Notes under the pieces: model-generated
The model's database searches: none
The model's input: only the letters and a program-made list of their open reading frames with translations
What the model was told of the DNA's origin: nothing
Made by a program: the position numbers and the translations under genes
Shown here: positions 8,131 through 56,708 of the stretch, piece after piece
Position numbering within the stretch: position 1 is the first letter of the stretch
How the letters are laid out: the number at the start of each line of letters is the position of its first letter
Assembly: GCF_963576615.1 (NCBI RefSeq)
Contig: NC_088717.1
Span: 955,001 to 1,019,000 of the forward strand
Source: Watersipora subatra
Lineage: Eukaryota > Bryozoa > Gymnolaemata > Cheilostomatida > Watersiporidae
Direction of reading: 5' to 3'
DNA length: 64,000 bases

Positions 8131-8348
8131 GCCCAAGCCTCCACAAAACTCAGACATAATATTTTAACAAACTATAAATGTGTGAGATGGTTGAAACCTG
8201 TAACAAATACATGGTGGAATTATATTTCTACAAAAATATATAAAATAGTACACATGGATGAATAAACGAACAGAAAAATAATGAATAAAAACAACAACTA
8301 AAGTTTGTTTGTTTACCTACGGTGTTGGTCATCTAGATCAGGCTAAGT

Positions 8349-9327: not shown

Positions 9328-10415
9328 TGTAAAATACTAAATAAATGTAATAATATAATTTATAACAAGAAGTATGCGAACAGAAGTGTAGACTAGGCGA
9401 TTCACAGGTTCAGAGGTGAAGGTGGTGATGAAGACATGCAGAGTGACTTACCTTAGCTTATAGTAGGTAAAATGCTAGCCAACATACCTAATGTACCCTT
9501 TACTGCTTTTATTATTTTTACTGCTTTCATATTTGTGGTAGCCTGTATATGTTGTAAGTCTGTATGTGTGTAAATTTGTGTATATATATACATGTATATA
9601 TATCACAGGTATTTCATATTTGCAAGGTTGCTAGCCAACCATTATTTCCTCGTAACACCAGCGACCCAGGATAAGGTCGAGTGGGGCTACTGCTTTGATG
9701 TTCACTTGAATGCCTTCTTTCCACTTCTAGTGATTCTCCATGGCACCAAAGCCATGGAGAATGTTACAGCTGTCTATTAATGCGCACCTCTATGTTCTTG
9801 ATTGTAACTATTCCTATAGTATTACTGAGGCATTATTAGTGTTATATTGTTATATCATTAGTGTCATACTGAGGTAGGCACTGGTCCTCTTTTACAGCAC
9901 TACCCATACTAAGAAAGACGAAGCTCTTACTGTTTCCTTTCACCGTACTCGCTATTTTCTACATTATCAGCCTCGTGCTTCGTTGGAATCTGGTCCGCAT
10001 CTTCCATCTATATATATACAGTCTACAGATAACAAGCTGCGCTGAATATGGTTCAAGGACAAGTTGGTCTCTATACGAGGGTTTACACTAGACCTGTATT
10101 GGTTGCCCAGATGGAATGGCGCTAGCAATGATGACTCTCTTAGATTGGCAATATGAAATGACTTGATTAGACTAACTGTAGTTATCTCGGCATGGCCAAC
10201 AGTTAATAAGATATTCTGGTTTCAAGTCTTCTTTCATGCAATTGTGTATACAGTTGGTAATTATGCTGTGTGGGTAAACAATCCCTCTTTACAAATGTGA
10301 AGGGAAAGCTTTTTTGTGTAGCATTACATTAATATAACTTATTGTTTTATTGCCTATCCTTTTTGACACACGATGCACGCCATGAACACGATGGTGTAAT
10401 AATTAGATGGCTAAA
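9328..10415. other. Non-coding stretch with a short hairpin
   Basis: No gene recognised. At about 9733-9761 ATTCTCCATGG and its inverse CCATGGAGAAT flank a nine-base loop. The remainder is ordinary unique sequence leading to the 3' end of the minus-strand gene. Confidence 0.5.
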
Positions 10416-39700: not shown

Positions 39701-42700
39701 TGTCTGTAGGCATATTTTTTGTCTTTTTTTAATTAGCTTTCGCTGTTTCCTCGCGGTTTATAAGCATTGAGTTTTTATTTTAGCAGCTGGAGAGTCATAT
39801 TTATTACAAGGACAGGCGACTACAAATCAAAGTGAGAATCAAAAATGGAGGCTGCCAGCCATAATTGGTGGATCTGTAACAAGTGCAGTTCTCATCTTCA
39901 CATTCCTCGCTGCGTATGCCTATCGGAGAATACGAGTGGCTCAAGTGATCAAACGAGCGCAAGCACAAAATACCAGCCCCAATCATGTGGTTATGCAGGC
40001 AAGAATTTACTGCTTATGGAATCTTCTTGGCTGTAAAATAATTGTGACAATAAGTAGTGTTGTGAGATTTATATTTGAGTTGTCTTTCCTTTTTTATGAA
40101 AAGATCACTCCCAATAAGTAGCAAAATTGGTTTTTGCTTGGTCACTTCTATGACACTCTTTCAAATACACTGCTTATAAGTAACTGAAGTATACTACAAA
40201 CTAAATGATATCAATCTGAGATGCACAATGTCTAATTGTACCGCAAACGTCTTCCCCAGTATGTTTTCACTTCATCAGTCATAAGCTATCTAGTCAATTT
40301 CCTGTGTGACCATCACATTAGATTTTTACAGTTTTATATGCAATATAAATCTGTGCGACCAAAACCCGTCAGTTTAAGTCTGTAGGTTTGGAATTGCTAG
40401 GCCACAGGCTATTTCTATAGCCTGGCGAGGCTTTAACTAGTTCATTGTAAGAGGAACGCTCCGACTTCTGAGCCGGAAAACGTTCTGTAACATTCACATT
40501 TCACCGACAGGTTCAATCAGGAGAGTACACAAACTTTGGGGACATAACTCCTTCGGTGCAAACCGTGAGGAGTGGCCGTGGTGGAGAGAAAACTCATACC
40601 TCGACTGCTAGACATTCTAGGCGGGACCAACGAGCCAAAATTCATCGTACTAATCATCGAAATAAACTACAAGGTTTGTAGGCGATAACAACGGTGGTGG
40701 CCATCATCTCTAATCGTAACTTATAACAAAGTAGGGATTTCATCGGTAGTGTGCAAGGTTGTACATGTAGTTGCCCAGAATATTAGATTGTTTTAAATGT
40801 TTCAAATGTAAAGAACGTAACAAAGTCTAAAATTTGAGTAAGTTGAAGCTCACTCACCAATACTGTACGTTTATTTCACTGTGGAAATTGAAATCTGACT
40901 TTGAAAATGTTTTTAATCTTTTTTTATTTGCAGCATTTTAAACCTTTTGTGATCACCATAACTATAATGAGAGAGAAATAGTGTTTTACTACAGAAGTTT
41001 ACCAAAGAGTGTAAACACTGGAATATTTTATACTTCATACCCCTGATAAATATAGAGGTATTACAGTATTTTTTGCAACAATTGTGTACACAGACTCTGT
41101 GATATTTTGTACATTACTCCTACCTCGCATAATTGTAGAGGCATTACAGTAGTTTTTGCAATGATTGGGTACACACACTCTGTGGTCTTTCCTACTCTTG
41201 ATGATAGTGGAGACATTACAGTAGTTTTTGCAACGATTGGGTATACAGACTCTGTGATATTTTGTACTCCTACCTCTCATAATTGTAGAGGCATTACAGT
41301 AGTTTTTGCAATGATTGGGTACACAGACTCTGTGGTCTTTCTTACTCTTGATGATAGTGGAGACATTACAGTAGTTTTTGCAACGATTGGGTATACAGAC
41401 TATGGAATATTTTGTGCTCCCAAGTCTCGATAATTGTAGAGATATTATTGTAGTTTTTGCAATGATTGGGTTCACAGACTCTGGGACAATTTTTACTCCA
41501 GGTCTCTCATAATTGTAAGAACATTACAGTAGTTTTTGCTATGATTGGGTGCACCATAGTACGCAAAAGCCTAGACATACAGAACTCTTCAACAGTAGGT
41601 ACGCATGTCACTGGGACGCATCACCAAGATCTTTGTCAATATTTTATGTTTATAATGGATGAAAACACTTGCAGCACACATGAGAAGTGTGTTTGATGAA
41701 CAATAAAATATCCATTATTGGAATTGTCAGCGCGTTGTCTCATCAATAAAGTAGTTACTGTGATGAGTGCTTATTATTGAAAGAGTAGAAGATAACTCCA
41801 AGTTTATGAATATGTGTCAGTCTCACTGATTATTCACTATCTTTCAATTACTAACTAACAGTTATATTCATGTGTAACTTGAAGGGTTTTTCATAAGAAA
41901 TCTAAAAATCCTGGAAGGTGAGGGTTTACTTAAAGGTTTACCTTATGCTGCCTTATGACGGTAATGAATACAGTATAATTTAAATATCCAAGTTTTCATC
42001 ACCTGTGCACAGTCAGAAATTTAATCTTGGATTCAGCTACTCTTGAATGTTGGAACACAACTGTTTCTCTAATGAACAAGTTTGTCAACAGGTATAAGAG
42101 AAGATGAGGGGCCAGGTATAACCCTCCCGGATCCATACCATGTGAAACCTGAGGACTTCCTTCACGCGAGCGACCTGCTGCACTTGAGTACTCCGATAGC
42201 CGGCAGCCAGCATCCCCTCAATCTGAATATCCCTCCAGAAAAAGGTGGAGCAAAGCGAAAGGCTAAGGTCAGGACTGACAGCGAGTTGTCTTATCTGCTG
42301 AGTAACTTTTACTAGAATAAAAATTATGTTTGTCGATGTACGACATTGATTACAAAGAGCTAACTTTTGTAGAAGCATAAGAGGAGACGACTCAGGTCAA
42401 AGCAAGGACCATATGAAGATCCTCAGGAAGTAGATAATCTCATTAATAGCCTTCCAGTTGCTCCAACTGGCAAACGATATGCCTCAGTTCCTCCGGTGGA
42501 TCCAGATAGGTACGCCCTTTGCCTCCTTTACACTCACGAGCTTGACTCTTACATACTCTTGTTCTTTGTAAAAATAGGTTTAACAGAATTTGTAGGAAGG
42601 CCCACAATTGTATAAAACCTTTAATCTTATCATAAACTAGTACCCTGGCATTTCGGTTTGCCGTGAGACATCAAGTGTGCCGTGAGACATCAAGTGTGCC

Positions 42701-45513
42701 GTGAGACATCAAGTGTGCCGTGAGACATCAAGTATGCCGTGAGACATCAAGTGTGCCGTGAGACATCAAGTTTGCCGTGAGACATCAAGTGTGCCGTGAG
42801 ACATCAAGTTTGCCGTGAGACATCAAGTGTGCCGTGAGACATCAAGTGTGCCGTGAGACATCAAGTTTGCCGTGAGACATCAAGTATGCCGTGAGACATC
42901 AAGTGTGCCGTGAGACATCAAGTGTGCCGTGAGACATCAAGTGTGCCGCGAGACATCAAGTTTGCCGTGAGACATCAAGTGTGCCGTGAGACATCAAGTG
43001 TGCCGTGAGACATCAAGTATGCTAATAAAGTGCAGAGAATAAGGATGAGCGCAATTATTTGAAAATGCTCGAAAATGGTCGATTTCCTCAGGTGTTAGAA
43101 TGTTGGACCAAACTGAAAATTTCGACTTTAAATCCTCTAATGATGCGATATGTTTTCGCAACTTCCAGCCGTGGTTCGGTGGGATGAACACTGCTCTTAC
43201 TATAGTAAAGATGAGAGTGAAGAGTACTTTGCACTTTACTGTATCTCTACTAAATAGCTACAGATACAAATAATTAATAATATTCTAAACGCAGAACTCT
43301 AAATAAACTATGTTTCCTGTATGGCAACTGTTTGAACTTTTTCGTAACTAGAAACAAAAGAATAATGCCTGTCTAGCATTTCTTGACTTTTTTTCACAGC
43401 TCGGACAGTTTTCCTCTTCTAGCAATCCCGTAAGTTCGCTGTTATGTGACCTCGTAAAGTACACCTAGTGGTCATGTGACCTCATGACACGCATGAAAAA
43501 GTAATGTGCTCTCACCCCATGCATGAAACAGTCATGTGACCTCATGAGACAGTCATGCATGAAACAGTCATGTGACCTTATGACACGCTTGAAACAGTAA
43601 TGTACTCTCATCCCATGCATGAAACAGTCATGTGATCTCAAAACTGCAAACAGCTTTCAGCTAAGTTAACCCGCTGCAGGCAGGTGTCTAGTGATTAACC
43701 TGTTTTATATATGTTCATGTTGTGTAAAGCAATATTTACTAGTGTTGCGGCTTAAAAATGGATTGTTGTACACGCTTGCTATTTGTATATAAGTCATACT
43801 TATAGGTCAAGGACATCCTCTAAGTGTATATAGAGGCATAAATACATATATATGACATGGCTTTCAGCCAGTTATATAGTTTTTGTAGTTTTTGTCTAAT
43901 GCTAATTTTTAAAACAATCAATTTTCGTTGATTGTTTAGCATATGACACTATGTGTCATATGCTAAACAACACATAGTGTCATATTTTACAATATGTGAC
44001 ACTATGAGCCATATATTGTAAAATATGATACTGATAGTGTCATATAGGACTGTGACACATATGACACTATCAGTGTCATATTTGTCACAGTCATATATGA
44101 CACTATGTGTCATATATGACTTTGACACATATGACACTGATAGTGTCATATGTGACTGTGACACATATGACACTATCAGTGGCATATGCGTCAAAGTCAT
44201 ATATGACACTGTGTCATATATGACTGTGACACATATGGCACCGATAGTATTACTGGTGTCACAGTCGTTTATAATTAGGAGATGAATTGAACAAAATTGC
44301 AAAATTCAAATTGCAAAAGTGTTAAGAATCATAATATGCTAGGACTCTTAATTTAGACTCGTATACCGATGGTTCAGAAATATGTCAAAGTGACCTATTA
44401 ACCAATCTTCTGTATCACAATATATATTCAGTTTTGGTTTTTCATTCTCTTCAACAGCGAGTATAGAGCCCTCATTAATCAGCTCTCTTCAACTGGCTCC
44501 CATAACCAAAGCACCTTGATAGATACATCAGCAGAAGTGCACCCTGTACCTCATACCACACCTGTAGAGAACACAAGTCATGAGTTGTCTCCGCTTGTGT
44601 CCCCTGATGCTATCAATGGCCAGAGGTAAGCTTTGCTAAGTTGACTGTTGGTCTTTTCTTACCTTTTTTTAGCTTCAGTTTCACACCTGTTTGAATAGAT
44701 CACGAGTTCACTAGCCGTTTAAGATGTATGTTTAGGGAAAGCTCAAATTTTATGAGAACTTTTCACATAAAAATATATTTTCTACATTTCTAGTGTTCAT
44801 AAAACGTGTTAACAAATTCATCTACCTTGAAAATCAGTATTTAGCTCTGCGCTTTTGATTCTACCAGGTCACCATGTTTAGATGATGGGTACAACTCATT
44901 GGCCAACACTGGCTCAACGCAATCAAATCTTTCCTCTCGAGACAGAGAGCCGCCCACAACCCAAAGACTCAACCAAATTAAGGAGCGACCAGGTTCCTCT
45001 GATCGTTCCTCTTCAATAGATAATAGAACTCCGCAGCGCCCCAGCTCTCATAACTGCAGTATTGCTTCTCCACAGCAGGGGAAGCAGAGTTCATGCCGTG
45101 GCAGCACTCCATATGCAGCGAATGAGCTGCAACTATCGCATATCACCTGTCCATTAAACAAACCGGATGGTGAGAGTGATGAGGAATGCTCGCTACCCCA
45201 GCGTGATCCTTACTTTGTCAATCATTCTTGCCCAACCAGTCATTCAACAACTCTGGAACCACCCCTAAACTTTGCTGACTCTAAAGCTATGTTGAGTTTA
45301 TCTAGCAAACCTCGAGAACCACCGGGCTTACTGCATGTGAGAAAAGCAGATGACACAATCATGTCAAATTCTAACACCACATCTGACAGCTATGAGTATG
45401 ACGATTACCTGCCACCGCCTGTCACGAGTAGTCACAGTTCAACGCCATCCGATCCCTCCTGGTGTCAACCTCCAATCGCGGAGGAGAATTTAACAGATGT
45501 TCATGCATTATAA
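15725..45513 (+). CDS. THSD1: THSD1-like receptor with CUB-like domain (gene span, 16 coding exons)
   Basis: The joined exons give about 1059 residues with every splice phase consistent. Order: signal peptide (1-19); THSD1-type ectodomain (20-345), with a cysteine and Trp-Pro pattern that follows human THSD1 (VWPQFSLTLP, DLPCQLFDRAGFYRVVL, YCFRYQ); one thrombospondin type-1 repeat (349-400) with WSQWYKWSEC and six cysteines; a Cys-rich linker and CUB-like domain (about 415-558); a membrane helix (583-605); and a cytoplasmic tail of about 454 residues rich in Ser and Pro. Human THSD1, a single-pass protein of 852 residues linked to talin and focal adhesions, has no CUB domain. The orthology call rests on remembered sequence and architecture; another TSP1/CUB receptor family is possible. 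Introns carry many minisatellites. Confidence 0.7.
17390..17437. repeat. Hairpin in THSD1-like intron 1
   Basis: GCAGTTACAATAT and its inverse are separated by about six bases, with further pairing of CTCTGCTA against TAGCAGAG. Only a small mismatch interrupts the stem. Confidence 0.7.
17762..17853 (-). CDS. Last exon with DRQIKR tail
   Basis: The acceptor ATTATTGCAG precedes a phase-1 start. Thirty codons including TAG encode the acidic-basic tail ending YGKDP. Compared with the 10.6-kb paralogue, the acidic extension is missing. Confidence 0.5.
17762..18123 (-). CDS. Putative very small gene, paralogous tail exon
   Basis: The exon at 17762-17853 ends ENPEVDRQIKRDIQYG, then SLYGKDP and a stop. 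It shares the (E/V)NP-xxx-DRQIKR-xxx-Y pattern with the last exon of the gene at 10.6 kb, so the two look like paralogous tails. Upstream, 18084-18123 reads MSVQLGRWIARNY and ends one base into a codon before a consensus GTGAGT; the phase fits the acceptor TTGCAG exactly. Together they would encode 43 residues. The frame stays open upstream of that Met, so the true 5' end may differ. It lies antisense in intron 1 of the THSD1-like gene. Confidence 0.4.
19013..19364. mobile_element. MITE, copy 1 (AAGCCTGGTT ends)
   Basis: A 352-bp element with ends AAGCCTGGTT and AACCAGGCTT. It is clearly more GC-rich than its surroundings. A second copy, inverted relative to this one, lies at 28176-28528 with blocks such as AACCTTCCCGAAATGCACTG conserved. 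The open frame inside is incidental. The superfamily is unknown. Confidence 0.85.
19894..19944. repeat. Hairpin
   Basis: TTTATGTTTCAGCACAC pairs with GTGTGCTGAAACATAAA across a loop of about seven bases. The stem is nearly perfect. Confidence 0.8.
20858..21715 (-). pseudogene. LINE ORF C-terminus with R2/R4-type endonuclease domain
   Basis: On the minus strand, broken frames read WRMKPLHGAYHRQISNVGD, then a zinc-knuckle-like CRLCKDAPETIQHIISGC, then a nuclease-like block with LDIVMVDKENKRATIIDIAV, IPVVLGELG and finally ELQKSALLGTGKILRRVLK. The C-x2-C-H-C finger followed by a PD-(D/E)xK-like core is the arrangement of restriction-like-endonuclease LINEs (R2/R4/NeSL). A stop after PTKQI and a frame change disrupt the ORF. 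The 3' end runs into a TA microsatellite at 20858-20873, and the 5' part is missing. It lies antisense in the THSD1-like intron 1. Confidence 0.75.
21850..21985. repeat. TA-rich simple repeat
   Basis: Long runs of TATATA mixed with GTATAAGCATATATATA blocks. Low complexity, with no gene. Confidence 0.85.
22409..22431. repeat. Poly-G tract
   Basis: A pure run of 23 G, capable of G-quadruplex formation on the strand of the THSD1-like transcript. Assembly length may be inexact in such a run. Confidence 0.9.
22498..22523. repeat. Perfect 26-bp palindrome
   Basis: CGCTTAAACAATG followed directly by its reverse complement. It can form a cruciform. Confidence 0.85.
23491..23523. repeat. Poly-C rich tract
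   Basis: Several runs of five to ten C with few interruptions. It would read as G-rich on the minus strand. Confidence 0.9.
23841..24020 (+). CDS. THSD1: THSD1-like exon 2
   Basis: Residues about 20-80. After the acceptor TATTGCAG it reads ESLLVPANLVTGPSTDYVIL, matching the start of mature THSD1 (a Glu-Tyr/Ser-Leu-Leu pattern followed by short beta strands). It ends in phase 1 at a GTAAGC donor. Confidence 0.75.
25573..26128. repeat. Degenerate repeat of about 23 bp (CCTAAGGCTATGACTATAGA)
   Basis: More than twenty imperfect copies with many substitutions and small length changes. It looks older than the sharper arrays elsewhere in the window. It lies in THSD1-like intron 2. Confidence 0.85.
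27105..27355 (+). CDS. THSD1: THSD1-like exon 3
   Basis: Residues about 80-163. It follows a long pyrimidine tract and TAG, and reads GIVQFPCYTILYPGVYDVKL, then VWPQFSLTLPNK. This parallels the human Cys-containing strand and its Trp-Pro-Val-Phe linker. It ends in phase 0 at GTAAGG. Confidence 0.8.
27534..27657 (+). CDS. THSD1: THSD1-like exon 4
   Basis: Residues about 164-205, phase 0 to phase 1. It contains DARDLPCQLFDRAG, the part just before the GFYRVVL strand. The spacing to the next exon's cysteines matches the second ectodomain of THSD1. Confidence 0.75.
28060..28097. repeat. Hairpin
   Basis: GTAGTTCAACTTCTAA and its exact inverse flank a six-base loop. It lies in THSD1-like intron 4. 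Confidence 0.85.
28176..28528. mobile_element. MITE, copy 2 (inverted relative to copy 1)
   Basis: It carries the same ends, AAGCCTGGTT and AACCAGGCTT, and the same interior as 19013-19364 in opposite orientation. It differs by scattered substitutions and lies in THSD1-like intron 4. Confidence 0.85.
29450..29484. repeat. G-rich tract
   Basis: Runs of four to twelve G separated by single A. A potential quadruplex former in THSD1-like intron 4. Confidence 0.9.
30689..30909 (+). CDS. THSD1: THSD1-like exon 5
   Basis: Residues about 205-278. It reads GFYRVVLRQRESESYVSTSN, then FPCADQLVITFTRPDC. The two cysteines and beta-strand spacing follow the human block with VPELTCESGVEVTVLPPPC. It ends in phase 0 at GTTAGT. 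Confidence 0.8.
30975..31318. repeat. 19-bp minisatellite (TCACCTGGTGATCATATCT)
   Basis: About 18 copies, most containing the palindromic core GGTGATCA. It begins about 65 bases after the donor of THSD1-like exon 5. Confidence 0.93.
32316..32508 (+). CDS. THSD1: THSD1-like exon 6
   Basis: Residues about 279-343. It contains VSFSCDDIRRYHW and AYCFRYQSVAS, then LFCLPINSS just before the TSP1 module. Human THSD1 has the same FNC...KYCFDFG...C order immediately before its TSP1. It ends in phase 1. Confidence 0.8.
32650..32872. repeat. AT-rich low-complexity tract
   Basis: Almost pure A/T with TATATAATA blocks. It lies immediately before the left end of the transposon at 32876. Confidence 0.8.
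33402..33623 (+). CDS. Possible transposon-encoded ORF fragment
   Basis: An open frame of 73 codons with a charged N-terminal helix (VLKKEQKRLYEHKF) and an acidic end before TAA. It sits wholly inside the 1.8-kb transposon and could be an exon of a transposase or accessory protein. No family was recognised. Confidence 0.25.
   Translation: MTAAANEKNISVLKKEQKRLYEHKFLANRQNFAIVSHEESSDDNFLTSHAVAIESPLTSTQDSDSDIELLLPK
33939..34260 (-). CDS. Possible two-exon acidic small ORF inside transposon
   Basis: ATG at 34260 opens 37 codons (MASSSQKISPSLFTLKS, then an acidic DDHDSDLDIM end) to a strong donor GTATGT at 34149. After 172 bases an acceptor TTTACTGCAG leads in phase 0 to IENETTYSDYEN and TAG (33939-33977). 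The joined product would be 49 residues. Good splice signals are the main support; function is unknown. Confidence 0.3.
34757..35052. repeat. 14-bp minisatellite (ACCTACACCTCTGA / ACCTACATCTCTAA)
   Basis: About 20 copies of a 14-bp unit in two alternating variants. It lies in THSD1-like intron 6, just right of the 1.8-kb transposon. Confidence 0.92.
35388..35462 (-). mobile_element. tRNA-derived SINE fragment
   Basis: On the minus strand an A-box-like TGGTTAGCTGAGGG is followed at tRNA-like distance by a near-consensus B box GAGTTCGAGTCCCC. No complete cloverleaf could be folded by eye, so I favour a SINE head over a functional tRNA. Confidence 0.5.
36005..36142. repeat. 23-bp AT-rich tandem repeat
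   Basis: Five to six copies of ATAATATATTGCAATAT-type units. Low complexity, in THSD1-like intron 6. Confidence 0.9.
36470..36652 (+). CDS. THSD1: THSD1-like exon 7: thrombospondin type-1 repeat
   Basis: A single symmetrical phase 1-1 exon encodes the whole module (residues about 343-404), as is usual for TSP1 repeats. It has the C-mannosylation-type WSQWYKW and six cysteines (SEC, GNC, RYC, KFC, RVC, SSC). The first cysteine motif is CSGNC: Asn replaces the Ser/Thr needed for O-fucosylation in CxxS/TC. Human THSD1 has CSATC there. Confidence 0.9.
36738..36897. repeat. 16-bp minisatellite (TATAACTCTATGTTTG)
   Basis: About ten copies, starting roughly 85 bases after the donor of the TSP1 exon. 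Confidence 0.93.
37743..37851 (+). CDS. THSD1: THSD1-like exon 8: Cys-rich linker
   Basis: Residues about 404-440. It reads APLLRTGPVTSRPRHRIP, then KCWCGCPLSDSSG. The CWCGC group begins the CUB-like unit. Phase 1 to phase 2, donor GTGAGC. Confidence 0.75.
37972..38322. repeat. 61-bp minisatellite
   Basis: Six copies of a 61-bp unit containing GTGGGAGTTGCATTCTCCCA. The variants CTATCAAGAGAAAG and CTACCAAGAGGAAG alternate, so expansion was partly by 122-bp dimers. The spurious frame at 38154-38384 comes from it. Confidence 0.93.
39023..39146 (+). CDS. THSD1: THSD1-like exon 9: CUB-like, part 1
   Basis: Residues about 440-481. It reads RRCKGDANYFVHMVWHITTE, then IQLNVSEFKW. The alternation of aromatic and hydrophobic residues matches the early beta strands of CUB domains. 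Phase 2 to phase 0. Confidence 0.7.
39336..39570 (+). CDS. THSD1: THSD1-like exon 10: CUB-like, part 2
   Basis: Residues about 482-560. It contains CGIGSICQVRDG, LLLMDLRGNEDHD, ISSSNYLHVEFMSGE and DLFIISYSTYYG. The sequence S-S-S-N-x-L-x-V-x-F just before the last strands is the usual CUB pattern. Phase 0 to phase 1. Confidence 0.75.
39787..39998 (+). CDS. THSD1: THSD1-like exon 11: transmembrane segment
   Basis: Residues about 560-630. The helix is PAIIGGSVTSAVLIFTFLAA, followed by the stop-transfer RRIR. The acceptor is TAGCAG, a tandem NAG-NAG site at which one extra Ala could be included in frame (start 39784). The donor is CAG followed by GCAAGA, so intron 11 appears to be a GC-AG intron. 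Confidence 0.75.
40511..40673 (+). CDS. THSD1: THSD1-like exon 12: cytoplasmic tail
   Basis: Residues about 631-685. Basic and Ser/Thr-rich (TVRSGRGGEKTHTSTARHSR), with no known domain. Phase 0 to phase 1; acceptor ACCGACAG. Confidence 0.7.
41040..41545. repeat. Long-unit tandem repeat, about 150-bp dimers
   Basis: The block ATTACAGTAGTTTTTGCAA recurs about every 72 and 78 bases in alternation, so the unit is a dimer of roughly 150 bp. It creates long chance frames on both strands. It lies in THSD1-like intron 12. Confidence 0.88.
42092..42267 (+). CDS. THSD1: THSD1-like exon 13: cytoplasmic tail
   Basis: Residues about 685-743, including ITLPDPYHVKPEDFLHASDL and ending GGAKRKAK. Donor GTCAGG, phase 0. 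The frame stays open past the donor for a further 45 bases, but joining to exon 14 restores phase. Confidence 0.75.
42373..42509 (+). CDS. THSD1: THSD1-like exon 14: cytoplasmic tail
   Basis: Residues about 744-789. It begins KHKRRRLRSKQGPYEDP, which together with the end of exon 13 makes a 16-residue basic cluster resembling a nuclear localisation signal. Phase 0 to phase 2. Confidence 0.7.
42655..43023. repeat. 19-bp minisatellite (GCCGTGAGACATCAAGTGT)
   Basis: About 19 near-identical copies in THSD1-like intron 14. The very low divergence suggests a young array. Confidence 0.95.
43440..43640. repeat. Degenerate repeat with CATGAAACAGTCATGTGACC
   Basis: Five or six loosely repeated segments containing ATGAAACAGT and ATGTGACCTCA. 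Unit lengths vary. Confidence 0.7.
43927..44272. repeat. Palindromic array of ATATGACAC / GTGTCATAT
   Basis: Alternating direct and inverted copies of ATATGACAC make nested hairpins along about 345 bp, for example TAGCATATGACAC with its inverse across a three-base loop at 43937-43965. Both strands are open in one frame by chance. It should fold strongly as single-stranded DNA or RNA. Confidence 0.93.
44458..44625 (+). CDS. THSD1: THSD1-like exon 15: cytoplasmic tail
   Basis: Residues about 789-845. It reads EYRALINQLSSTGSHNQST, then a Thr/Pro-rich stretch. Phase 2 on both sides. Confidence 0.7.
44868..45513 (+). CDS. THSD1: THSD1-like exon 16: C-terminal tail and stop
   Basis: Residues about 845-1059. 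Ser, Pro, Asn and Gln rich and probably disordered. It contains SDSYEYDDYLPPPVTSS, with clustered tyrosines next to a proline run, and ends DVHAL before TAA. Acceptor CTACCAG. It is the longest open segment of the gene. Confidence 0.8.
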
Positions 45514-46334: not shown

Positions 46335-46342
46335 TTATAAAA
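46335..46342 (+). promoter_or_regulatory. TATA-like box of prokineticin-like gene
   Basis: TTATAAAA stands about 65-72 bases upstream of the ATG at 46407. This would place transcription start near 46365 and give a short 5' leader. Confidence 0.5.
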
Positions 46343-46406: not shown

Positions 46407-46451
46407 ATGAAAGTCTTAGGGTTAATCTGCTTTCTTCTCATAGCAGGGCTG
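46407..46451 (+). CDS. Prokineticin-like gene exon 1: signal peptide
   Basis: ATG with G at -3. It encodes 15 residues (MKVLGLICFLLIAGL) and ends in phase 0 at the donor GTGGGT. Confidence 0.65.
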
Positions 46452-49400
46452 GTGGGTACTACCTTATATGGTCACTAAAATATATTACAGAGCTTGTACC
46501 ACATATGTGGACTAGAACTTCATTTCTGTTGATTTTCTTCCTGATTAGTATGAACTCTGTCAACGTAAAAAAATTTTCTCTTCTTAAAGCAAACCTCATC
46601 GCATAAGTCAGCACTCACCTTGAGAAAAGCCTACATTATGGAAAATTCAATGATGCTGGGTTAATGCTTAGTTTAACAAACTTGAAAGTTGCGCCAGTCC
46701 ACTAGCCTCGAGCCTAATTTGAAGATACTAAACACTAGCATTGTGTAGGGAGCAGCCGTGATTCTGTGGTTAGCCGCTGGCATACAATCAGGAGGTCAGG
46801 GGCTTGAATCTCAGAAGGACCATTAGTGGTATTAGGAAGGGCATCCAGCCACAATTGCCCTTGTGTAGATGGTCACAGTATATCTAGTTCCAGGGGGTAT
46901 ACTATTTGCTTTGGCGAGCCCTAAAAGGGAGAGTCTAATAGAAGCAAATACACTAGTATAGTTTAACAATGATGTTATTGATATTAATAAGAACTGAATT
47001 CTTTTGATCTGTCATGTTTCTTATTTCTGTAAATGGTTTTATTTAAGGGCCGTTAGATCTTCCTAACTGGCTAATTATTTCTATGTTTAATTTGTTCCTG
47101 TTGCTGATTAGATTTGTACAGCTCAGGGAAAGAAGGAGAGAAACAAGCCAGCTGATAGGAGTTTGTTTAAAGGTAAGAGAGACAGCCATGACACGGGTAG
47201 TCTGGTTTCAGTCAGCGACTCAATCTTTATCACTCGTATATAATAATATAATACGTAATATATCTAGACTGTACATATATAATATCTGAACACAGGCAAT
47301 AAGAATAGACAAGGTGGACTAGAGGAAGGAGACTATTCGGGTAACCAAGTTTCAAGGTCTATGAACAGGTATGCATGTCTATGTCTTGGTCTATCTTTAT
47401 GTCTATATGTATATATGTCCATGTCTATATGTATATATGTCCATGTCTATATAAATATATGTCTACTAGGTGCATGCCCGAGTAATAAAAAAGTCTTGGG
47501 ACAAAAATTTATTTTTATTTAACATTTACCATGCTAACTTTTAAACTTCATATCATGAGAAATGTGTTTTTTTTGCGCAGTTCAAATAAATTAAGAGAAA
47601 AAATAAAACAACTGTAAAGGTTTTCCAACTTTTGAAACAACTGTAACTTTTAAACTTCATATAATGAAAGAAGTGCTTTGGTGAAATATATTAGGAGGAA
47701 AAATAAAATTGTAATGGTGTTTAAATGTAAGTGTGAAATCATTCTCAAGTAATGGCTAAATACAGTCTGCTTTGTTATGATTACAATGAAAAATTGTTTG
47801 GTATACAATTATACGACTTTAGTTTGTTTCAGTGTTGGCATCATAAGGCAAATATATCGTATAGAGTGGTATAGAACCCAAGTAATTATCTAATGCAAAC
47901 ACCTGGTAAAAATAATCAAAACCACCATCCTTAAGCAATAGCAACAAAACAATATGTTAACCTTAGTAAGTATAGTTACCTATAATAACTTCAGTGCATT
48001 TTGAGGTTATGATGTGCATGAAAATGTAACATTACAATGTACTACGCGCAGAGTGTACCGTGGAGAGTTTTCACCTTCGAGACAGATGTGTGACATATAT
48101 GCTGAGTCTAATTTAAATAAATTTAGCTTCCTAAACACATGCTTAAAAAAGTTTTGGTATGTATTTTAGTAAACTTCTAACTAAAGTTTTATCACTTATC
48201 TGTTTGCGAATCCGTTTTTACCATAAAGGATAACGCTGAACTCGCCATGACGAGCAATGTATACCTTCTAATAATGTATATAATCAGTACACAAATCGTC
48301 AACGTTTAATTTCGAGAAATTTTTTTGTTGATATCAATGGCGCGAAAACAATTTGCTCTAGTATGGCGAGAACGAAAAAGCATCGTGTTTTATAGAGTTA
48401 GGTGAAAAATATTTTATAACAGGGGCATCGTAACCCGTAGGCGCATTGTATCAATTAATACATCATTTAGCGTGTGAAATCGGAAAAAGGGTGTACATAC
48501 AGTATATAGAAAGAGCGATGGTATCGTAAAAACTTTTGTAGACTTGTGGTTAGATATTTGGTTTCAACAAAAATGCGGGTGCAATCTTCATGAGTTCAAA
48601 TCCAGCGCGATGCAAGCTTTTCGTTCCAAAATTTTAATAGCTATAGTCTGAGACACCGAAGTGCACAATAACAGAATGACAGACACAAACACTGAGAATT
48701 ATATATAAATGTCTGTATGCGTCTATGTCTGTATGTTTACATCTGTATGTCCATTCACATCAGTATCATCATATACTATCATATGAAGTTTTAGGCATCT
48801 GACGGGCCATCTTTGAGTAAATTTGCCATCAATCTATGCTGTTTAAAACAGTTTCTAGATTCTAATAAAGTTTTGACATATGTAAAATATTGGTATGTCT
48901 ATCACATACAAATTATTCAGAAAATGAGAGTTCCTGTAGTAAATTCAAGGTACCAACTTTTTATTATAATGTAAAACTTTGGTTAAGGCCAACTTTTCAT
49001 AAACCGGAGACGTTATAGCTTTTACTGAATAGGTGGTCACGATGGTACCAGACGAAATCGGATGATTCAATGGGGGATCAGGAGGAGACTGGATGGCAAA
49101 ACTGGGGAAGAAATTTCAAAGACAGCCACAGAAAGTGGTGGGACAGACAGACAGACAGCAGCAGGAAGTGGTGGAACAGGAAGAATGGGAGGTTTAACAG
49201 ATGGTTTGAAAACAGTGAGAGTGTTGAAAATATCGATTCTAGCGAGAAATCGGCTGAGAATGGTTTCTGGTTTTCAGTTGGTTCAAGAAAAACTAAACAT
49301 TCTCAAGAATCGGAGGACAACTCCGACAGCGCAGAGAGTCATGAGAAACATTGGAAAGGTCCATCATGGAAAAACTGGTGGAAGGGTTCTGAGAGTGAAA

Positions 49401-52400
49401 GCGAATCTTCATCGATGTCTTCTGAGGAAGATTATTCATGGGAAAGAATAACTGTGGGATGGTGCGAAAGATGGTGTCAGAAATGGGCTTCGAGTCAAAA
49501 AAACTTTTATCAGCTGTTTTCATTGACAGGTAAAGAGAGTTTATTCATAGAAAAATGTAAATAAACACTTATATATGTTATATATTACTTTATTGGCAAT
49601 AAAATGATATCTAATATGTATAAATGTTCAACATTTAAAGTTTTAGTGTCGCATCGTTACAACAAAGCTTAGCAATATCAAAGTATTTTTTCAGCATTTA
49701 AAAGCTTTTGAAATTTTATTAGCGTGCTTTATAGGTACAACTAAAAACTAACTGACACATTGCTAGACTATAAACAGTGTAATAGTGGACTCACTGTTAT
49801 ACTGTTCTCTTATGTACGTAGCATAGCTGTTCCTGTTTGATATGGATTTGCTAGATAAACTAAATATTATATTTACAGGTTTACTAAGGCGGCCCAGCAA
49901 TAAAGATAGAAGTGAAATGATACTGGACAAGTGCAAGCAGGTTGTAAGCTGGAGTGGCATCATGTGCAGGTAGCCAGTATAGGCTTTACTTGTCATAGCC
50001 TAGCAACTATAGCATAGAAAGTAACTGATTTCCTATTTGGCTTTCATAAGCAATTCTTAATCGTCACTGCTGCAATTATTAATATTTTCACCTTTATAAC
50101 GGCTTGTGTTCTTTTCGCTCGCACGCCTTTATAACGACTCGACTTAGTATTGATAGAAAAACATTTATCACGGATTACAGATGTAACAGATCAAACTAAA
50201 GTTTTGCCACAATAGATTTAGGATACATGTATTGGATTATTCTTTTGCCAAAATAACAGGCCAGTTAGTTTTTTTTCACTCAGAAGTCACAACATAATAT
50301 CACGAGTTTCAAATTTTATATTTTCAGTTTAGGATGGTTGGAAACAAAGATAGTAAACTGCGACCTAAATGAATTTTTGCAATGCAAAGTAAAATTCTTC
50401 AACGTTGGGCCTCAGTTATATCTGATAGCTATATTATAATTTTAGAGAATAGGGGTCTGTGTTTAGGTCAGCTACAAAAATGATAGCATTCTACTTCTGC
50501 ATGCGGTTTCACTAAACTGAAAAAAATATTGAACACAGCTTTTGTTTTTCAAATGCATTGATTCTTATGACAAAATTTCTGCTGATTCTAAAAAGCATCA
50601 AAAATACCTAATGTAAGTCAGCTAAGATTTTTAATCATGAACTAATTGCATCAGAATGAGAAACAAACTTTATTGTGAAAGAGTTAATCTCTTTGCAACG
50701 TTGAGGATGTTTTAGACAAAGGTTACTTTCAGATTACTTACACTCAGTCCTCTGAGAGTATGCGTTGCGCAATAGTTGAGACAACAAATCTTGGAGTTAC
50801 CCTCTCTCTCTCGATTTTGGACCACAATCATCAAAAGCTACTGCCATTTCTCAACTGTAAGGGGTGCCATACGAGCACCCCTTAAGCATAGTAACACAAT
50901 TTTTTTAGCTCGTTTTTACTAACCACAAATAGCTGGTTATAAGTTGGGCTGCATTGTGAAACCTATTGCTTGATTCACCTTGGACAAAAATCCTCTACAG
51001 TTTTTACCTTGTTGAGAAAAATAATCTCCATGTTTGAATCAAGTCTACTATCTTTTGGATAACAGATCACATTTGGAGTTATATTTACTGTAACAGTTAC
51101 AATGAGAGCCAGGTGAACACAACAGACCCTTATGAAAGCAATGCAACGGCTACAACGCAGGAGCCAATGACCACCACCTATCAGGATTCGAGGACTTGCA
51201 GAAGTAACATGGACTGTGGTTCAGATGAATGTTGTGCTTTGACAGCGAGACGGTAGGACTATAAAATAATAAAAGCCCTCAATTTTTTTCAGCAACTCAT
51301 GCTAGTATGTGACAAGGTAGACTAGTTTTAGAGAAGTTGTAATCTGCAATATACATGGAGTTATCTGACCATGTGTCAGAAGACTAAGAAAGTAAACTGT
51401 TTGAGATAAAAATGCAAAAGTCTTATTTTAGATGCAGAAAAAATATGGCATTTTACTATTTGTTTTTACTAAAACTATGGCTGGAAACGTGTGACACGTA
51501 GAAGTTGTGTGCCCACACATATGGCTATAGACTTATACATAAGCCTTAACCAACCCATATAAGGAATGTCATAATGATGATACAAATCTAGTTGTATGTA
51601 CATTATAACGCACACACATCGATTGTGCGTAGAACATGACTATACTAAGCGTCATACAACTTTTTACATTCTTGCCTAACTATCGCCTGTATGCATGGTC
51701 CACACCAGGTTATCGTATTGATGCCTAAATAGCTAGTACAAATAATTGAAACCTTGTAACAAGATATTTGTTTTTAGGACATTCACCTTTACAAAATCTT
51801 TGATATAACTGATGCAATTTATAACACAATTAGACACATCTTTAAATATTATTTTCAATAAATAAAATTATTAAGATATAAACATAATTATTTTACAACT
51901 AAACACATAGTAGTCAATAAACATGTGATGCTTTCCATGTTGCTGTTCCTTTAGTAATATATATCTTTGATTTTTTCGCCTAAAAGTGCATGAGATAGAT
52001 GTCATGTACTTGAGGCCTTGACCTAGTGCGTAATCTTGTAGAGGTGTATCAGGGTTATTTTGCACGGGATACAGCAAAGAAGGGGAATATTGTACAAAGC
52101 CAGAGTACTGGTCAGAAAATCAGCAGCAAGTGCTGCCAAGTGATTCCTGTCCATGTCGATCAGGTCTTGAGTGTGTCAGCAGATATAACTCGATGTGGAA
52201 GATTGTTGGATTATATCGTGGAGACAAATCCTACACCAAGCCATACGTAAGGAAATTTACAGCGGTATCACTATACGGACTGCTGAAGCTTTGTGTTGCA
52301 GTAAACATTGTAAGCAGGCCTTGTGCAACATGATACATGGGCCTCGTAATAGTGTGCATAACTAACCTAAGGTCACATAAGGTCACATAAGGTCACCTAA

Positions 52401-55400
52401 GGTCACATAAGGTTACATAGCATTATAAAGTCATGAAGACAGCAAATCGGTGGACATGATTTTCATTATTGAGAGTTTAAAAAGAGTTTGAGCAGTGCAT
52501 AAAATATTTTAGCCCTTTAGCAGTTGTCCTCTCATTCTCACCCTGTAACCTGATGCTTAATTAGTCGTTATGCTAGCCCTGGTTCAGAGTTTCAGACCAG
52601 TATCGTACGTTCATGGATGACACCTTATTGCATCCTGCAGAAAGATATGTCGTTACAAGCACAATTGATAGCTACACCATGTTTTTACTTTCCACTGGCA
52701 GAACACGCAATGAGTCTGAGATTACGCTGTGCACTCGATTCACATCAATCCTAGCGTAGCGAGCCCACGACTATACAAGACCGAGCTGAACAATGCTCTT
52801 GTGTGTTGCACGCAGAATTTAGCTGCGTAATCCTGTGATTTCATAGTTATTTGGTACACATCAATCACACACCTGCGTAAGCTTGCATAACAGGGGGCAG
52901 CACCTCGCATGCTATACATATGTTATTGATCTGAACCAGGTTTGACCACAAAAGCTGCGTTACTAAATTTTGAATTTTTTTGAGATTTTGAATTGTTTAC
53001 GATGATAGAACAAGTTTTTAGCGCAGCCTTGAACAATAATTAAAAATTAAAGATTTCAGTCAAACCATATCAACTGAGCCAAGAAATACCATTAAACATT
53101 TACTTCCGATCAAATCAATGGATGAGTTTTTCAAAGCTGTAAAAGAGAAAAAACTTGTATGTTGGAAGAAAGTTCCAACATACAAGTTTTTAAAACAAAT
53201 TTTCATGTACAAGTGAAAAAGCTGGAAAAGACTATAAATAAAATAAAAAATATTAAAATTATGAGAATATATGAAGTAAAACAGTTCAAAATTTCTTTGG
53301 TAAAACTAAATTGAGTTTTTTTAACACTTCTGTTTTCAACTTAAGCATTATCGAATTTAGAGTTCTGCTCTGCATATCTTCCGTCTCACCCAGGGTCTGA
53401 GAACCATTCAAGCTAGTCAATTCTAACAATTTTAGGAAATAATTGGAGTCTGCAGCGTGGAGAGAAGCTATGAAACAACTCCAGCTGAAATCTCTAGTAG
53501 TGGTGAGTATATGCTATTAAAAAGTGTTCAACCATCAATATCAAGCCGAGTTGGTTTTGTTGTGAGAAAGTATAATGCAAAGCAAAATAATTTTTATTGG
53601 GTATTTAAAGCAAATTAGAATCAGCTGCTGGACCGTTCGCTATCTATTGTCTTTATAAGAGCATCTCAAAATTGAAAAGCACACTTTTTGCTGTTCTTCC
53701 CTAGACAAGCTTTTCATTTCAGCACATGTGTCAAACACATGTATTTGACACAGTTGTTTGACACGTGTCAAACAAATGTGTCAAATTCATGTGTCAAACA
53801 CATGTATTTGACACATTTGTTTGACACGTGTCAAACAAATGTGTCAAAAAGTATCTTAGTTCTTAGATGAAACAATTTGCTTACAACCAAGTTAATTACA
53901 TCATAGCGATAAACTGTTCAAGCATTAGCTGTTCTAGACGTAAAAAAGCTCAGAGATTACGGAGAGAATGCATAGAAAGTTTGCATTTTATGAGCCTTAC
54001 TTATGGGTCCATCAAACACTCATCAGAAAGTTAAAGAATAGCGAGACGAGGCTTTTTAAGGAGGAGTTTGTGGAGAAAAAGATTACTGGAGCGCTTCTCT
54101 CAGAAAAAATAACTGAGGAATCAAAATAAGATGCTCGATTTTTGTCAAAGATCATGGTCAGACACTTTTGTCAGACATCGTTATTAAAGTGCACAAACTG
54201 TTTTAGTAAGCTGGTCATGTGTGTGTTGACCAGATACAGTCTTCAGTTCATGTAAAACATTCTGCGATTGGCTGATGATTGAACTACGGGGTCAGCTCTT
54301 GACTCGTGAATAACTCATCACGAGTACCTTGGCATTCGCTTCATAATGTTTGCTGTGTACCTGCTTTATAAATAGTGGGTGTTTATAGTCACAATCAGAA
54401 AGTACCAAATACAATTATATTGGAAACTGTTTTTAACATGGAAGTAACACATATGACATACATGTATGTGTTACTATGTCACATATGTCATACGCTCCCT
54501 GCGACACTGAGCTTTAATGTGAAAGGGCGGTCTTATTTCTTATAAACGGTCAGGGTGTTTGATGGATGTCCTCGTATATCACGCTTCCCTTGTGAAAAGA
54601 GTCCAGAAAGTTTAATCATGCTGCATTATAGAAACATCACAAGATAAGATGCAACAAACTTACTTTTATTTATTATTAACACAATTCAATCTCAGATTAA
54701 ATAAAAAGTGTGTGACACAAAAGGAAGCATTTTATGCTTAGATCAAGAATGTTGAAAATAATTACTATATAAGAATATATTTTGTTATTTTATGTCATAT
54801 TGTATTATATTTGGTTATATATATTATATTGTACCGTATTGTACTATACCATACTGTATTATTATATTATATGATATTGCATTATAGAAGATTGTATTAT
54901 ATGATCTTTGGTTATATTGCATCATATGATTATATACTAGTAGCCAAGCATGTCCCTGAGCAGTGAGAGGTCATCATGTAATAATTATGTGCACAATTAT
55001 TCGTAAATGTGGAAAGGTTGTTGAGTGGCAGAGATGGCAGCATGCCTGATGGAAAATCCAGATATCTGGGTTTGATTCTCGCGCAGTGCTATCTTTTTTA
55101 TTAAAGCTCTTAGCGTGGCTTCGGACATATGGACACAGCTCTTATTATAGTAAAGATTATGTAATTATATTATATAATCAACTAGCCTAAATATCCTTAG
55201 GTTCATGTTTAATAGTTTCAGCTTATTTTTATGATTTTACTAACTGCAAGTCTGCAACAATTGTGCCTTGATCTGCTTTGTAAAGTTTTATGAAAATACG
55301 CATTGTAATACCTTTAATTCAGAAAGAGAAATATGTCCTTGTCTTCTGTCTGTTTTATGAATTATTGTTAAGTTAAAATTTCACACTAACAGCTTTTGGG

Positions 55401-56629
55401 TTTTCTGTCAGAAATGCTCAAAACAGTTTGATGCATTTTGAGAGTTGCCCGCTCTCAACAAATATCGCTACCATTTTCTGCTTTGCTTCTATCAATAACT
55501 GCTAACAAACAGCTTTTTAAACAAACAAATTCCAAAACCAACATAGATAGTCCTATTATCCCTTTAGCAGTTAATACAAATATTATATATTATATTAATA
55601 CACTGATATTATAAATGATTCTATTGCAGGAACCGATGGACTCGAGGCTAACATGACAACAACACAAGTCGCCACCCCTCCTGTACCTGAAGGTAACAGT
55701 ACAGAGCCTTCAACACCCTGCAGTAGTCACCTCGACTGTCCTTTCTTTCAATGTTGCTCCAGGTGAGTCACCAGCACTGAATCTCAGGTTCTTTTTGTTA
55801 AGCTCTATTTTATTCTCAACATTATTTATTTATTTAAAAAACTAATATTGAGTAAAAACAAAGTCATGATAGTGAAAAGTAATAAATACAATGAATTTGT
55901 GAAATTTTTACTTTTACATTAACACTTTTGTATTTACTTCTTCTTCACTTTAAATTAAACGATTTAATGTAACACTTACGTTCACCAAGTTGTAGTGTAA
56001 GCGGAGTTGTATTCCCTCTTTTTTATCCCGAAATCCAACATGCTCATTGATAATTAAATGAAACAAATGATGACATTTATTTTGAATGAGTTCTAATAAT
56101 CTATGCTATTGCACTAACTTCAAGGGAGGAAGGACAACCTGAGGTCAGCTTATTTAGTTACAGTATAAAAAAGTGTGAGCAAGTAAATTTTCAGGATACA
56201 GTTAGGGATTCCAGGATAAGTTGGCATACAGGATTAGCTACGAAAAAACATGGCTTAAAACAATACAGAAATCTATAGACAGAGGTGAAACATGGAAAAG
56301 TTAGAGTATTATGTGGTTATAATCAATAAAATTTAATCAGCTATATGCAAAGGAAGACAAACATGCATTTTGCGTGATAATTCACATCAAGTACGATATT
56401 AAGGTGGATTGACTCTCAATGACCTGATTTCTGTTATAGGACAGCACCCGGTGATGATCAGGATGGTATCTGCACACCCTTCTCTAGCCTTGGAGACTTG
56501 TGCATACCACAGGATGAGCTGTTCGTAACGAAAACCGTCGCTGCCTGTCCGTGTCAGGCCTTTTACAGTTGCCTTAGAACGAATGCGGATGTAGGTGGAG
56601 CTTATGGAGTATGCGCGACTGCCACGTAA
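46407..56629 (+). CDS. Secreted protein with two prokineticin/astakine-like domains (gene span, 10 coding exons)
   Basis: The joined exons encode about 505 residues. Residues 1-21 form a signal peptide (MKVLGLICFLLIAGLICTAQG). Residues 60-225 are rich in Trp, Ser, Glu, Lys and Arg, with repeats such as RKWWDRQ and RKWWNRK. A four-cysteine segment follows (about 205-255), then a Thr/Asn-rich linker. Two ten-cysteine modules end the protein: C290-C382 and C429-C501, each with the spacing C-x5-C-x4-CC ... C ... C ... CxC ... C ... C. That is the colipase-like fold signature of prokineticins, astakines and the Dickkopf C-terminus. Prokineticins signal through GPCRs and astakines act on blood-cell formation; whether this protein is a ligand is unknown. 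The AVIT N-terminus of vertebrate prokineticins is absent. All phases agree, but the acceptor of exon 6 is uncertain. Confidence 0.7.
46755..46935 (+). mobile_element. tRNA-derived SINE, family 1
   Basis: An A-box-like TGTGGTTAGCCGCTGG, a B-box-like GGGGCTTGAATCTC and the downstream motif GGAAGGGCATCCAGCC occur in order. A related motif (GGAAGGGCATC) is common in SINEs of molluscs and other animals, from memory. It lies in intron 1 of the prokineticin-like gene. Confidence 0.65.
47112..47172 (+). CDS. Prokineticin-like gene exon 2
   Basis: It encodes ICTAQGKKERNKPADRSLFK, the end of the signal peptide and a basic stretch. Phase 0 to phase 1, donor GTAAGA. Another frame is also open here but does not join in phase. 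Confidence 0.6.
47296..47368 (+). CDS. Prokineticin-like gene exon 3
   Basis: It encodes GNKNRQGGLEEGDYSGNQVS and RSMN, phase 1 to phase 2. Small and hydrophilic. Confidence 0.6.
47375..47466. repeat. Short repeat with GTCTATATGTATATATGTCC
   Basis: Four or five imperfect units immediately after the donor of exon 3. Confidence 0.75.
48515..48715 (+). mobile_element. tRNA-derived SINE, family 2, copy B
   Basis: B-box-like GAGTTCAAATCCAGC and a 3' block ATTTTAATAGCTATAGTCTG match the copy at 4520-4705. It ends near a short TATATAAATG stretch. It lies in intron 3 of the prokineticin-like gene. Confidence 0.65.
49033..49529 (+). CDS. Prokineticin-like gene exon 4: Trp/Ser/Glu-rich segment
   Basis: 165 full codons in one frame, about 18 of them Trp (11%). 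Motifs include RWSRWYQTKS, GWQNWGRNFKD, RKWWDRQTDSSRKWWNRK, NRWFENSES, SWKNWWKGSESESESSS and GWCERWCQKWASS. A second frame is also open for 129 codons, but only this one joins in phase on both sides (2 to 1). No known domain. The mix of Trp-Trp pairs with charged residues and acidic Ser clusters resembles secreted matrix proteins in composition only. Confidence 0.75.
49879..49969 (+). CDS. Prokineticin-like gene exon 5
   Basis: It encodes GLLRRPSNKDRSEMILDKCK, then QVVSWSGIMC. With GWCERWC from exon 4 this gives four cysteines that may form a small disulphide unit. Phase 1 to phase 2, donor GTAGCC. Confidence 0.6.
50863..50885. repeat. GC-rich hairpin
   Basis: AAGGGGTGC and its inverse GCACCCCTT flank a short loop. 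It lies in intron 5 of the prokineticin-like gene. Confidence 0.75.
51097..51252 (+). CDS. Prokineticin-like gene exon 6: linker and start of domain 1
   Basis: It encodes a Thr/Asn linker with N-glycosylation sites (NES, NTT, NAT), then TCRSNMDCGSDECCALTAR, which holds cysteines 1-4 of the first module. The acceptor chosen (CTGTAACAG) is the one whose phase matches exon 5. An acceptor at 51078 (start 51079) also fits, adding six residues. The site at 51066 does not fit in phase. Confidence 0.65.
52042..52246 (+). CDS. Prokineticin-like gene exon 7: domain 1 core
   Basis: It encodes GVSGLFCTGYSKEGEYC, then DSCPCRSGLECVSRY, giving cysteines 5-9. The EGEYC and CPCRSGLEC motifs closely follow the GREGEEC and CPCLPNLLC pattern of prokineticins. 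Phase 2 to phase 0. Confidence 0.8.
52365..52425. repeat. 11-bp repeat (AAGGTCACATA)
   Basis: Five copies in tandem, in intron 7 of the prokineticin-like gene. Confidence 0.85.
52577..52940. mobile_element. MITE-like element with CCCTGGTTCAGA ends
   Basis: The left end CCCTGGTTCAGAG and the inverted right end CCTGGTTCAGATC match for about 11 bases. The interior is more GC-rich than its surroundings and non-coding. The ends resemble the CCTGGTTCACA of the MITEs at 19.0 and 28.2 kb, but the interior is different. Confidence 0.55.
53153..53199. repeat. Perfect hairpin, 18-bp stem
   Basis: AAAACTTGTATGTTGGAA, a five-base loop, then the exact inverse. It lies in intron 7 of the prokineticin-like gene. 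Confidence 0.85.
53436..53502 (+). CDS. Prokineticin-like gene exon 8: end of domain 1
   Basis: It encodes EIIGVCSVERSYETTPAEIS and SS. GVC supplies the tenth cysteine, at the same place as YGVC in domain 2. Phase 0 to phase 1. Confidence 0.7.
53724..53850. repeat. Palindromic TTTGACACATTTG / GTGTCAAA array
   Basis: Alternating inverted copies of TTTGACACA, for example TTTGTTTGACAC joined directly to its inverse. It should form a long imperfect hairpin. Confidence 0.9.
54003..54566. mobile_element. Possible MITE with CCATCAAACAC ends
   Basis: CCATCAAACACTC near 54009 is matched by the inverse of GGTGTTTGATGG near 54556, about 550 bp apart. The interior has no ORF and includes a small palindrome near 54440-54490 (TATGACATACATGTATGTG). 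The target duplication is not clear. Confidence 0.4.
55010..55140 (+). mobile_element. tRNA-derived SINE fragment
   Basis: An A-box-like TGGCAGAGATGGCAGC is followed by a B-box-like GGGTTTGATTCTCGCGC. It lies in intron 8 of the prokineticin-like gene. Confidence 0.5.
55630..55762 (+). CDS. Prokineticin-like gene exon 9: linker and start of domain 2
   Basis: It encodes a Thr/Pro-rich linker with an NST site, then PCSSHLDCPFFQCCSR (cysteines 1-4 of module 2). It ends in phase 2 immediately after CC-x-R, the same intron position and phase as in module 1. Confidence 0.8.
56440..56629 (+). CDS. Prokineticin-like gene exon 10: domain 2 core and stop
   Basis: It encodes cysteines 5-10: GICTPFSSLGDLC, AACPCQAFYSC and YGVCATAT before TAA. 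Unlike module 1, no intron separates cysteines 9 and 10. Confidence 0.8.
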
Positions 56630-56702: not shown

Positions 56703-56708
56703 ATTAAA
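56703..56708 (+). terminator. Possible polyadenylation signal ATTAAA
   Basis: ATTAAA lies 74 bases after the stop of the prokineticin-like gene. No AATAAA is closer. Confidence 0.3.

Follow-up and report, generated by a model that had tools for sequence, protein, structure and literature searches.

A predicted secreted protein of the bryozoan Watersipora subatra with two prokineticin-like modules on one chain

Results

A ten-exon gene model

The sequence analysed here is a stretch of 64,000 nucleotides from the genome of the bryozoan Watersipora subatra (assembly GCF_963576615.1, contig NC_088717.1, positions 955,001 to 1,019,000 of the forward strand), referred to below as the window and numbered from its first letter. 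On the plus strand, between 46407 and 56629, ten exons can be joined into a single open frame of 505 codons and a stop codon, all introns are of the GT-AG type, and the phases of the predicted exons agree at all junctions. An earlier note on this DNA had described one reading frame of about 505 residues in ten phase-consistent exons, and the frame, the introns and the matching phases confirm that description. The model is open throughout, and its product carries two ten-cysteine modules, each behind a linker. The protein appears to be an uncommon form of a well-known molecule, namely two prokineticin modules on one chain. The features of the gene are as follows.

46336 to 46341, plus strand: candidate TATA box TATAAA, judged from the consensus alone; there is another TATAAA at 46236.
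46407 to 46451, plus strand: exon 1, a signal-peptide-like start; the most hydrophobic 19-residue segment of the protein starts at residue 1.
47112 to 47172, plus strand: exon 2, rest of the likely signal peptide followed by basic residues that include KK at residue 22; no other acceptor in the model is as uncertain.
47296 to 47368, plus strand: exon 3, from frame and splice sites.
49033 to 49529, plus strand: exon 4, region rich in Trp, Ser and charge (residues 60-226) with nine S-x-E; no Pfam match.
49120 to 49184, plus strand: two 32-nucleotide direct repeats in exon 4, 33 nucleotides apart, 81% identical, coding for 11-residue W-rich units.
49879 to 49969, plus strand: exon 5, dibasic RR at residues 229-230 (49887-49892), a candidate cleavage site of a pro-region.
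51097 to 51252, plus strand: exon 6, a linker rich in Thr, its N-glycosylation sequons at residues 258, 263 and 271, then Cys 1-4 of module 1 (from 51197).
52042 to 52246, plus strand: exon 7, Cys 5-9 of module 1.
53436 to 53502, plus strand: exon 8, Cys 10 of module 1 (53451-53453) and the start of a linker.
55630 to 55762, plus strand: exon 9, Thr-rich linker with sequons at residues 406 and 421, then Cys 1-4 of module 2 (from 55719).
56440 to 56629, plus strand: exon 10, Cys 5-10 of module 2, stop codon at 56627-56629.
56703 to 56708, plus strand: candidate polyadenylation signal ATTAAA, a consensus match only.

The junction of exons 1 and 2 is the least secure: the frame was kept by 7 of the 18 donor/acceptor pairs tried, the pair adopted being 46451/47112, and the alternatives alter only residues near the end of the signal peptide. 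GC content is 46% in the coding sequence versus 33% in introns. Two TATAAA elements lie within 206 nucleotides upstream of the ATG, the closer one 71 nucleotides before it, and ATTAAA starts 74 nucleotides past the stop codon; in DNA this rich in AT, such consensus matches carry little weight. No Rfam family and no tRNA was found when the window was scanned for them. In intron 8, positions 53723-53848 hold a nested palindromic array of TGTCAAACA-type units, with 51-nucleotide arms that are 96% complementary.

The model might fuse separate genes, most plausibly one gene made of exons 1-5, for a Trp-rich secreted protein, and another made of exons 6-10, for a two-module prokineticin protein, and less plausibly a separate gene for module 2 (exons 9-10). 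Consistent with such a division, intron 4 has AATAAA at 49560 and 49598 and intron 8 has one at 54700, the exon 5 donor (gtagcc) matches six of nine consensus positions, and a scan for signal peptides revealed three weak hydrophobic stretches following an ATG in intron 8 (54792, 55290 and 55431). However, these three score 2.31-2.37 in the scan, versus 3.33 for exon 1, and the same scan, which does recover exon 1, found that no ATG in 49530-51096 is followed by residues resembling a signal peptide. Intron 5 is without AATAAA, and the agreement of phases at every junction also argues against a fusion, which we consider improbable. Judged from the sequence, one gene is the simpler reading.

Two ten-cysteine modules

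The C-terminal part of the protein is laid out as two units, each composed of a Thr-rich linker with N-glycosylation sequons followed by a ten-cysteine module (residues 290-382 and 429-501). The cysteines of module 1 are at residues 290, 296, 301, 302, 315, 325, 344, 346, 352 and 382, and those of module 2 at residues 429, 435, 440, 441, 454, 464, 479, 481, 487 and 501, giving the common pattern C-x5-C-x4-CC-x12-C-x9-C-x(18/14)-C-x-C-x5-C-x(29/13)-C. The spacing is the same in both modules from the first to the sixth and from the seventh to the ninth cysteine; the same spacing claimed by the earlier note is thus borne out, with differences between C6 and C7 and between C9 and C10. When the C-terminal part (220 residues) was shuffled 200,000 times, at least one such pattern arose in six runs and two patterns in none.

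The two modules are 28% identical (E-value 2e-6 for that single comparison), and the score of the real pair was equalled by 9 of 5000 shuffles of module 2 in which cysteines were kept in place and by 0 of 5000 full shuffles. The linkers can be aligned too, loosely, and in each module the C4-C5 loop is split by a phase-2 intron, at positions that differ by four residues. Taken together, the module alignment, the shuffles, the likeness of the linkers and the C4-C5 introns suggest that a unit of linker plus module was duplicated within the gene long ago. An additional phase-0 intron ahead of the last cysteine of module 1 is absent from module 2.

When module 1, module 2 and the Trp-rich half were used as protein queries against the animal's own genome (784 Mb in 239 contigs), this gene was the sole result. 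A search of the genome with the Pfam Prokineticin profile gave nothing at E 0.001 and did not list the two-module gene itself, so the absence of paralogues is not established by it. At E 10 the Pfam search pointed to a place on C5 (L007; 16.2 bits, E 7.2), which was rejected since its frames lack, by eye, the prokineticin cysteine pattern. In a collection of prokaryote genomes there were 43 pattern matches, none of which was confirmed. Among other families sought in the animal's genome, COX1, molluscan haemocyanin, cuticle and GFP families were not found, the last three in searches that lacked a working control; a troponin T exon did match, as expected of a bilaterian.

Relationship to prokineticins

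When the whole protein was scanned against Pfam-A with a limit of E 1, the sole family found was Prokineticin (PF06607), over two stretches, with 21.6 bits and an E-value of 2.8e-4 (the curated cut-off of the family is 21.6 bits). Each real module alone also matches the profile, below the cut-off, and 0 of 10 shuffles with cysteines fixed do so, although two of the ten hit unrelated families by chance; the resemblance to Prokineticin therefore goes beyond the cysteine pattern. A sequence search of the PDB with module 1 returned Bv8 as the best match (E 0.0032) and MIT1 as the next (E 0.047); with a profile of the two modules, the E-values were 0.0013 and 0.0072, respectively. The alignment to Bv8 and MIT1 extends through the ninth cysteine. 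An NCBIfam scan of module 1 found no family.

Vertebrate prokineticins and other proteins of the AVIT family, such as Bv8 and MIT1, thus share with the bryozoan modules the framework C-x5-C-x4-CC ... C-x9-C ... CPC-x5-C and the PF06607 profile, and provide the best PDB matches. In contrast to vertebrate prokineticins, there are two modules here and a long N-terminal extension, and AVIT is absent before the first cysteine of either module: DSRT precedes Cys 290 and PSTP precedes Cys 429. With 505 residues and two modules, the protein is also not the short single-module secreted protein by which an astakine is recognized.

When the structure of module 2 was predicted from its own sequence alone, the best model had a predicted local distance difference test score (pLDDT) of 51.8, and the other four models scored 35-37. 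A Foldseek comparison of this model with the PDB gave 13 weak matches: the first was a spider toxin (2n8k, E 0.061), the second draxin (5z5k) and the third a Wnt signal protein domain (2jtk), which we take to be Dickkopf-2, followed by an insulin-like growth factor-binding-type protein and a double inhibitor cystine knot toxin at ranks 4-5 and procolipase (1pcn) at rank 6. This low-confidence model leans towards a colipase fold but does not prove it.

The earlier note had placed tandem modules of the prokineticin/astakine type behind a Trp-rich half, and the Pfam scan, the PDB sequence search, the shuffles and, weakly, the fold search back it. Of the checks it proposed, the profile search found Prokineticin, at the cut-off, and no Dickkopf family up to E 1, while structure prediction for residues 429-501 yielded weak matches, among them draxin, 2jtk and procolipase, none at E 0.001 or below.

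The position of Dickkopf in these searches raises the question of a Dickkopf-type Wnt antagonist, a protein with two Cys-rich domains, the second of colipase fold. Dickkopf-1 ranks next after Bv8 and MIT1 in the PDB (E 0.26-0.36 with module 1, 1.1-1.4 with the two-module profile). According to the excerpts of the published work on which this and the following comparisons draw, one domain of Dickkopf proteins is of the ten-cysteine type with a colipase fold, and the family has lophotrochozoan members (PMC6425005). However, the first Cys-rich domain of Dickkopf proteins is of another type, whereas both modules here are alike and of the ten-cysteine type; Bv8 and MIT1 outscore Dickkopf-1; and neither the Dickkopf N-terminal Cys-rich domain nor any other Dickkopf family was found in the Pfam scan of the whole protein up to E 1. 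We conclude that a Dickkopf-type antagonist is very improbable.

The N-terminal half

Residues 1 to about 20 are strongly hydrophobic and likely form a signal peptide, to judge by their resemblance to one; the predicted protein contains no second hydrophobic stretch of transmembrane quality. Residues 22-226 contain 17% Ser, 8.8% Trp and many charged residues. The nine S-x-E in the Trp-rich half, presumably the motif of a secretory-pathway kinase, compare with 3.55 expected from shuffling (p 0.004, for a motif picked post hoc). Trp residues may recur every 11 residues: within residues 22-226 lag 11 is the highest (p 0.008 alone, 0.18 over lags 1-29), and within residues 61-120 the p-value is 0.007 alone and 0.13 over all lags. 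The predicted structure of the 165-residue stretch from exon 4 consists of two helices of low confidence, one of which covers part of the Trp repeat (ten-residue pLDDT means of 70-77 at residues 81-110). The 11-residue Trp repeat is suggestive only. Between the Trp-rich half and module 1, four cysteines at residues 204, 208, 244 and 255 (C-x3-C, then C-x10-C; 49461-49969, exons 4-5) form a stretch that matches no Pfam family and, below E 0.24, nothing in the PDB.

Two other readings of these residues were rejected. As a source of neuropeptides, the Trp-rich half offers just a monobasic GR after WQNW, plus RK pairs, which is too weak; and the three W-x-x-W sites for C-mannosylation, versus 1.47 expected, are not significant (p 0.17).

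In the whole protein there are seven dibasic sites, at residues 22, 93, 104, 109, 145, 229 and 307, and none lies between modules 1 and 2; because of this, the modules probably remain tethered. Cleavage at RR229-230 could free the C-terminal half.

The composition of the N-terminal half is also what could be expected of a matrix, mucus or adhesive protein, in which a phosphorylated, S-x-E-rich and Trp-rich half would bind mineral or surfaces, the linkers would be mucin-like, and the modules would serve as cross-linking knobs. The Ser and Trp contents, the excess of S-x-E (with the post hoc choice of motif), the 33-nucleotide repeats with their 11-residue Trp spacing, and the two low-confidence helices of exon 4 fit this function. 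The lag-11 excess, however, is not significant across lags 1-29 (p 0.13-0.18), the terms 'prokineticin' and 'shell matrix protein' occur together in no paper of the open-access library searched, and the well-kept ten-cysteine modules suggest a specific binding role. We therefore regard a structural function as rather unlikely.

Elsewhere in the window

Upstream of the gene, on the plus strand, frames at 36436-36666, 39771-40121 and 44845-45513 resemble, by eye, a thrombospondin-1-type repeat, a transmembrane segment and a Ser/Pro-rich tail, and are perhaps parts of one receptor gene. In a Pfam scan of the second and third of these frames, one gave a weak Lactate_perm match far under the cut-off and the other gave none. 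On the minus strand, 12626-12916 matches Pfam Deltameth_res (E 1.2e-5, 25.5 bits, slightly below the cut-off of 27), and 21013-21483 by eye resembles the final part of a retroelement polyprotein, with no Pfam match. A long simple-repeat tract occupies 8337-9409, where frames stay open on both strands.

Discussion

The prokineticin-type domain is well known and usually single. Prokineticins have been reported from virtually all lophotrochozoan phyla sampled, flatworms excepted (PMC6425005), and relatives in tarantulas have the same cysteine framework (PMC3303826). Astakines of arthropods and prokineticins of lophotrochozoans, including those of oyster and Platynereis, agree with the bryozoan modules in having ten cysteines and no AVIT (PMC8398477). 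In annelids, the prokineticin precursors of Platynereis and Capitella carry, as the bryozoan protein does, extra peptide sequence after the signal peptide (PMC3890597). These invertebrate proteins differ in that they are described with one domain, and the excerpts do not mention a Trp-rich half of about 200 residues.

In the venom of the octocoral Eunicella, colipase-fold products derive from spliced precursors that hold several domains each (PMC11896702). If colipase-fold modules had likewise been recruited in W. subatra into a multi-domain component of venom, saliva or a defensive secretion, the top Foldseek match of module 2, the spider toxin 2n8k (E 0.061), would fit. Yet the cnidarian precursors have cleavage sites between domains and are encoded by five exons in two of the genes described, whereas the bryozoan gene has ten exons and its product no dibasic site between modules, and a search of the genome, itself weak, showed no further copy. 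A role in venom or the like is accordingly quite unlikely.

The earlier note had called the architecture one that it did not know. The exact combination, a tethered tandem prokineticin with a Trp-rich half, was indeed not found in searches of an open-access library that lacks most papers of subscription journals; its elements are less novel, since N-terminal additions to prokineticins and colipase-fold precursors with several domains have both been published, so that the note's judgement holds only in part.

Among a ligand, an adhesive and a matrix protein, we favour a ligand or cytokine-like factor. Specifically, the gene may encode the secreted precursor of a tethered, bivalent astakine/prokineticin-like factor whose Trp-rich half would be a pro- or retention region, a tentative reading to which we assign a probability of roughly 0.4. 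It is favoured because the relatives are secreted factors, AVIT is absent, protostomes are stated to have lost the receptor and no dibasic site separates the modules. Tick astakine promotes haemocyte proliferation (PMC10923820), and a haematopoietic role is ascribed to relatives in oyster and crustaceans (PMC8398477). The AVIT start is required for the vertebrate receptor (PMC11521371, PMC8398477); protostomes are stated to have lost the prokineticin G-protein-coupled receptor (GPCR), and the receptor of their prokineticin/astakine proteins is stated to be unknown (PMC8557429).

We infer secretion, glycosylation, cleavage, tethering and ligand activity in the following way. The signal peptide would be removed from the precursor, and the Trp-rich half with its acidic and basic residues (22 to about 228) would act as a pro- or retention region, perhaps cut off at RR229-230. 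The remainder would be a single chain of two prokineticin/colipase-fold modules on glycosylated Thr-rich linkers. Kept tethered, the modules could signal outside the cell as a bivalent, astakine-like factor, using a receptor otherwise than in the AVIT-dependent GPCR mode of vertebrates.

Several results weigh against this bivalent factor. The whole-protein Prokineticin score equals but does not exceed the cut-off, and single modules score below it (18.4 and 16.5 bits). No PDB sequence match attains E 0.001, and module 2 alone retrieved no prokineticin in that search; its structural model has a pLDDT of just 51.8, with no fold match at E 0.001 or below. One dibasic site, RR307, sits within module 1, so a dibasic site alone does not prove cleavage. 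The richness in Trp and Ser suits a structural protein as well as it does a pro-region, and the hydrophobic ATG stretches of intron 8, together with the AATAAA at 54700, leave some probability to a separate module 2 gene.

Dimeric ligands often indicate receptors that act by clustering. A more specific version of the bivalent factor, which we think unlikely, is a tethered ligand with a Trp-lined helical pro-domain, in a host group without the prokineticin GPCR, which would pair two copies of a non-GPCR receptor rather than act in the AVIT mode. A natural tethered two-module form, if true, would be a useful reagent and a clue to the receptor of protostome prokineticin/astakine proteins. If the protein is structural instead, it would represent the reuse of a signalling fold as a structural element.
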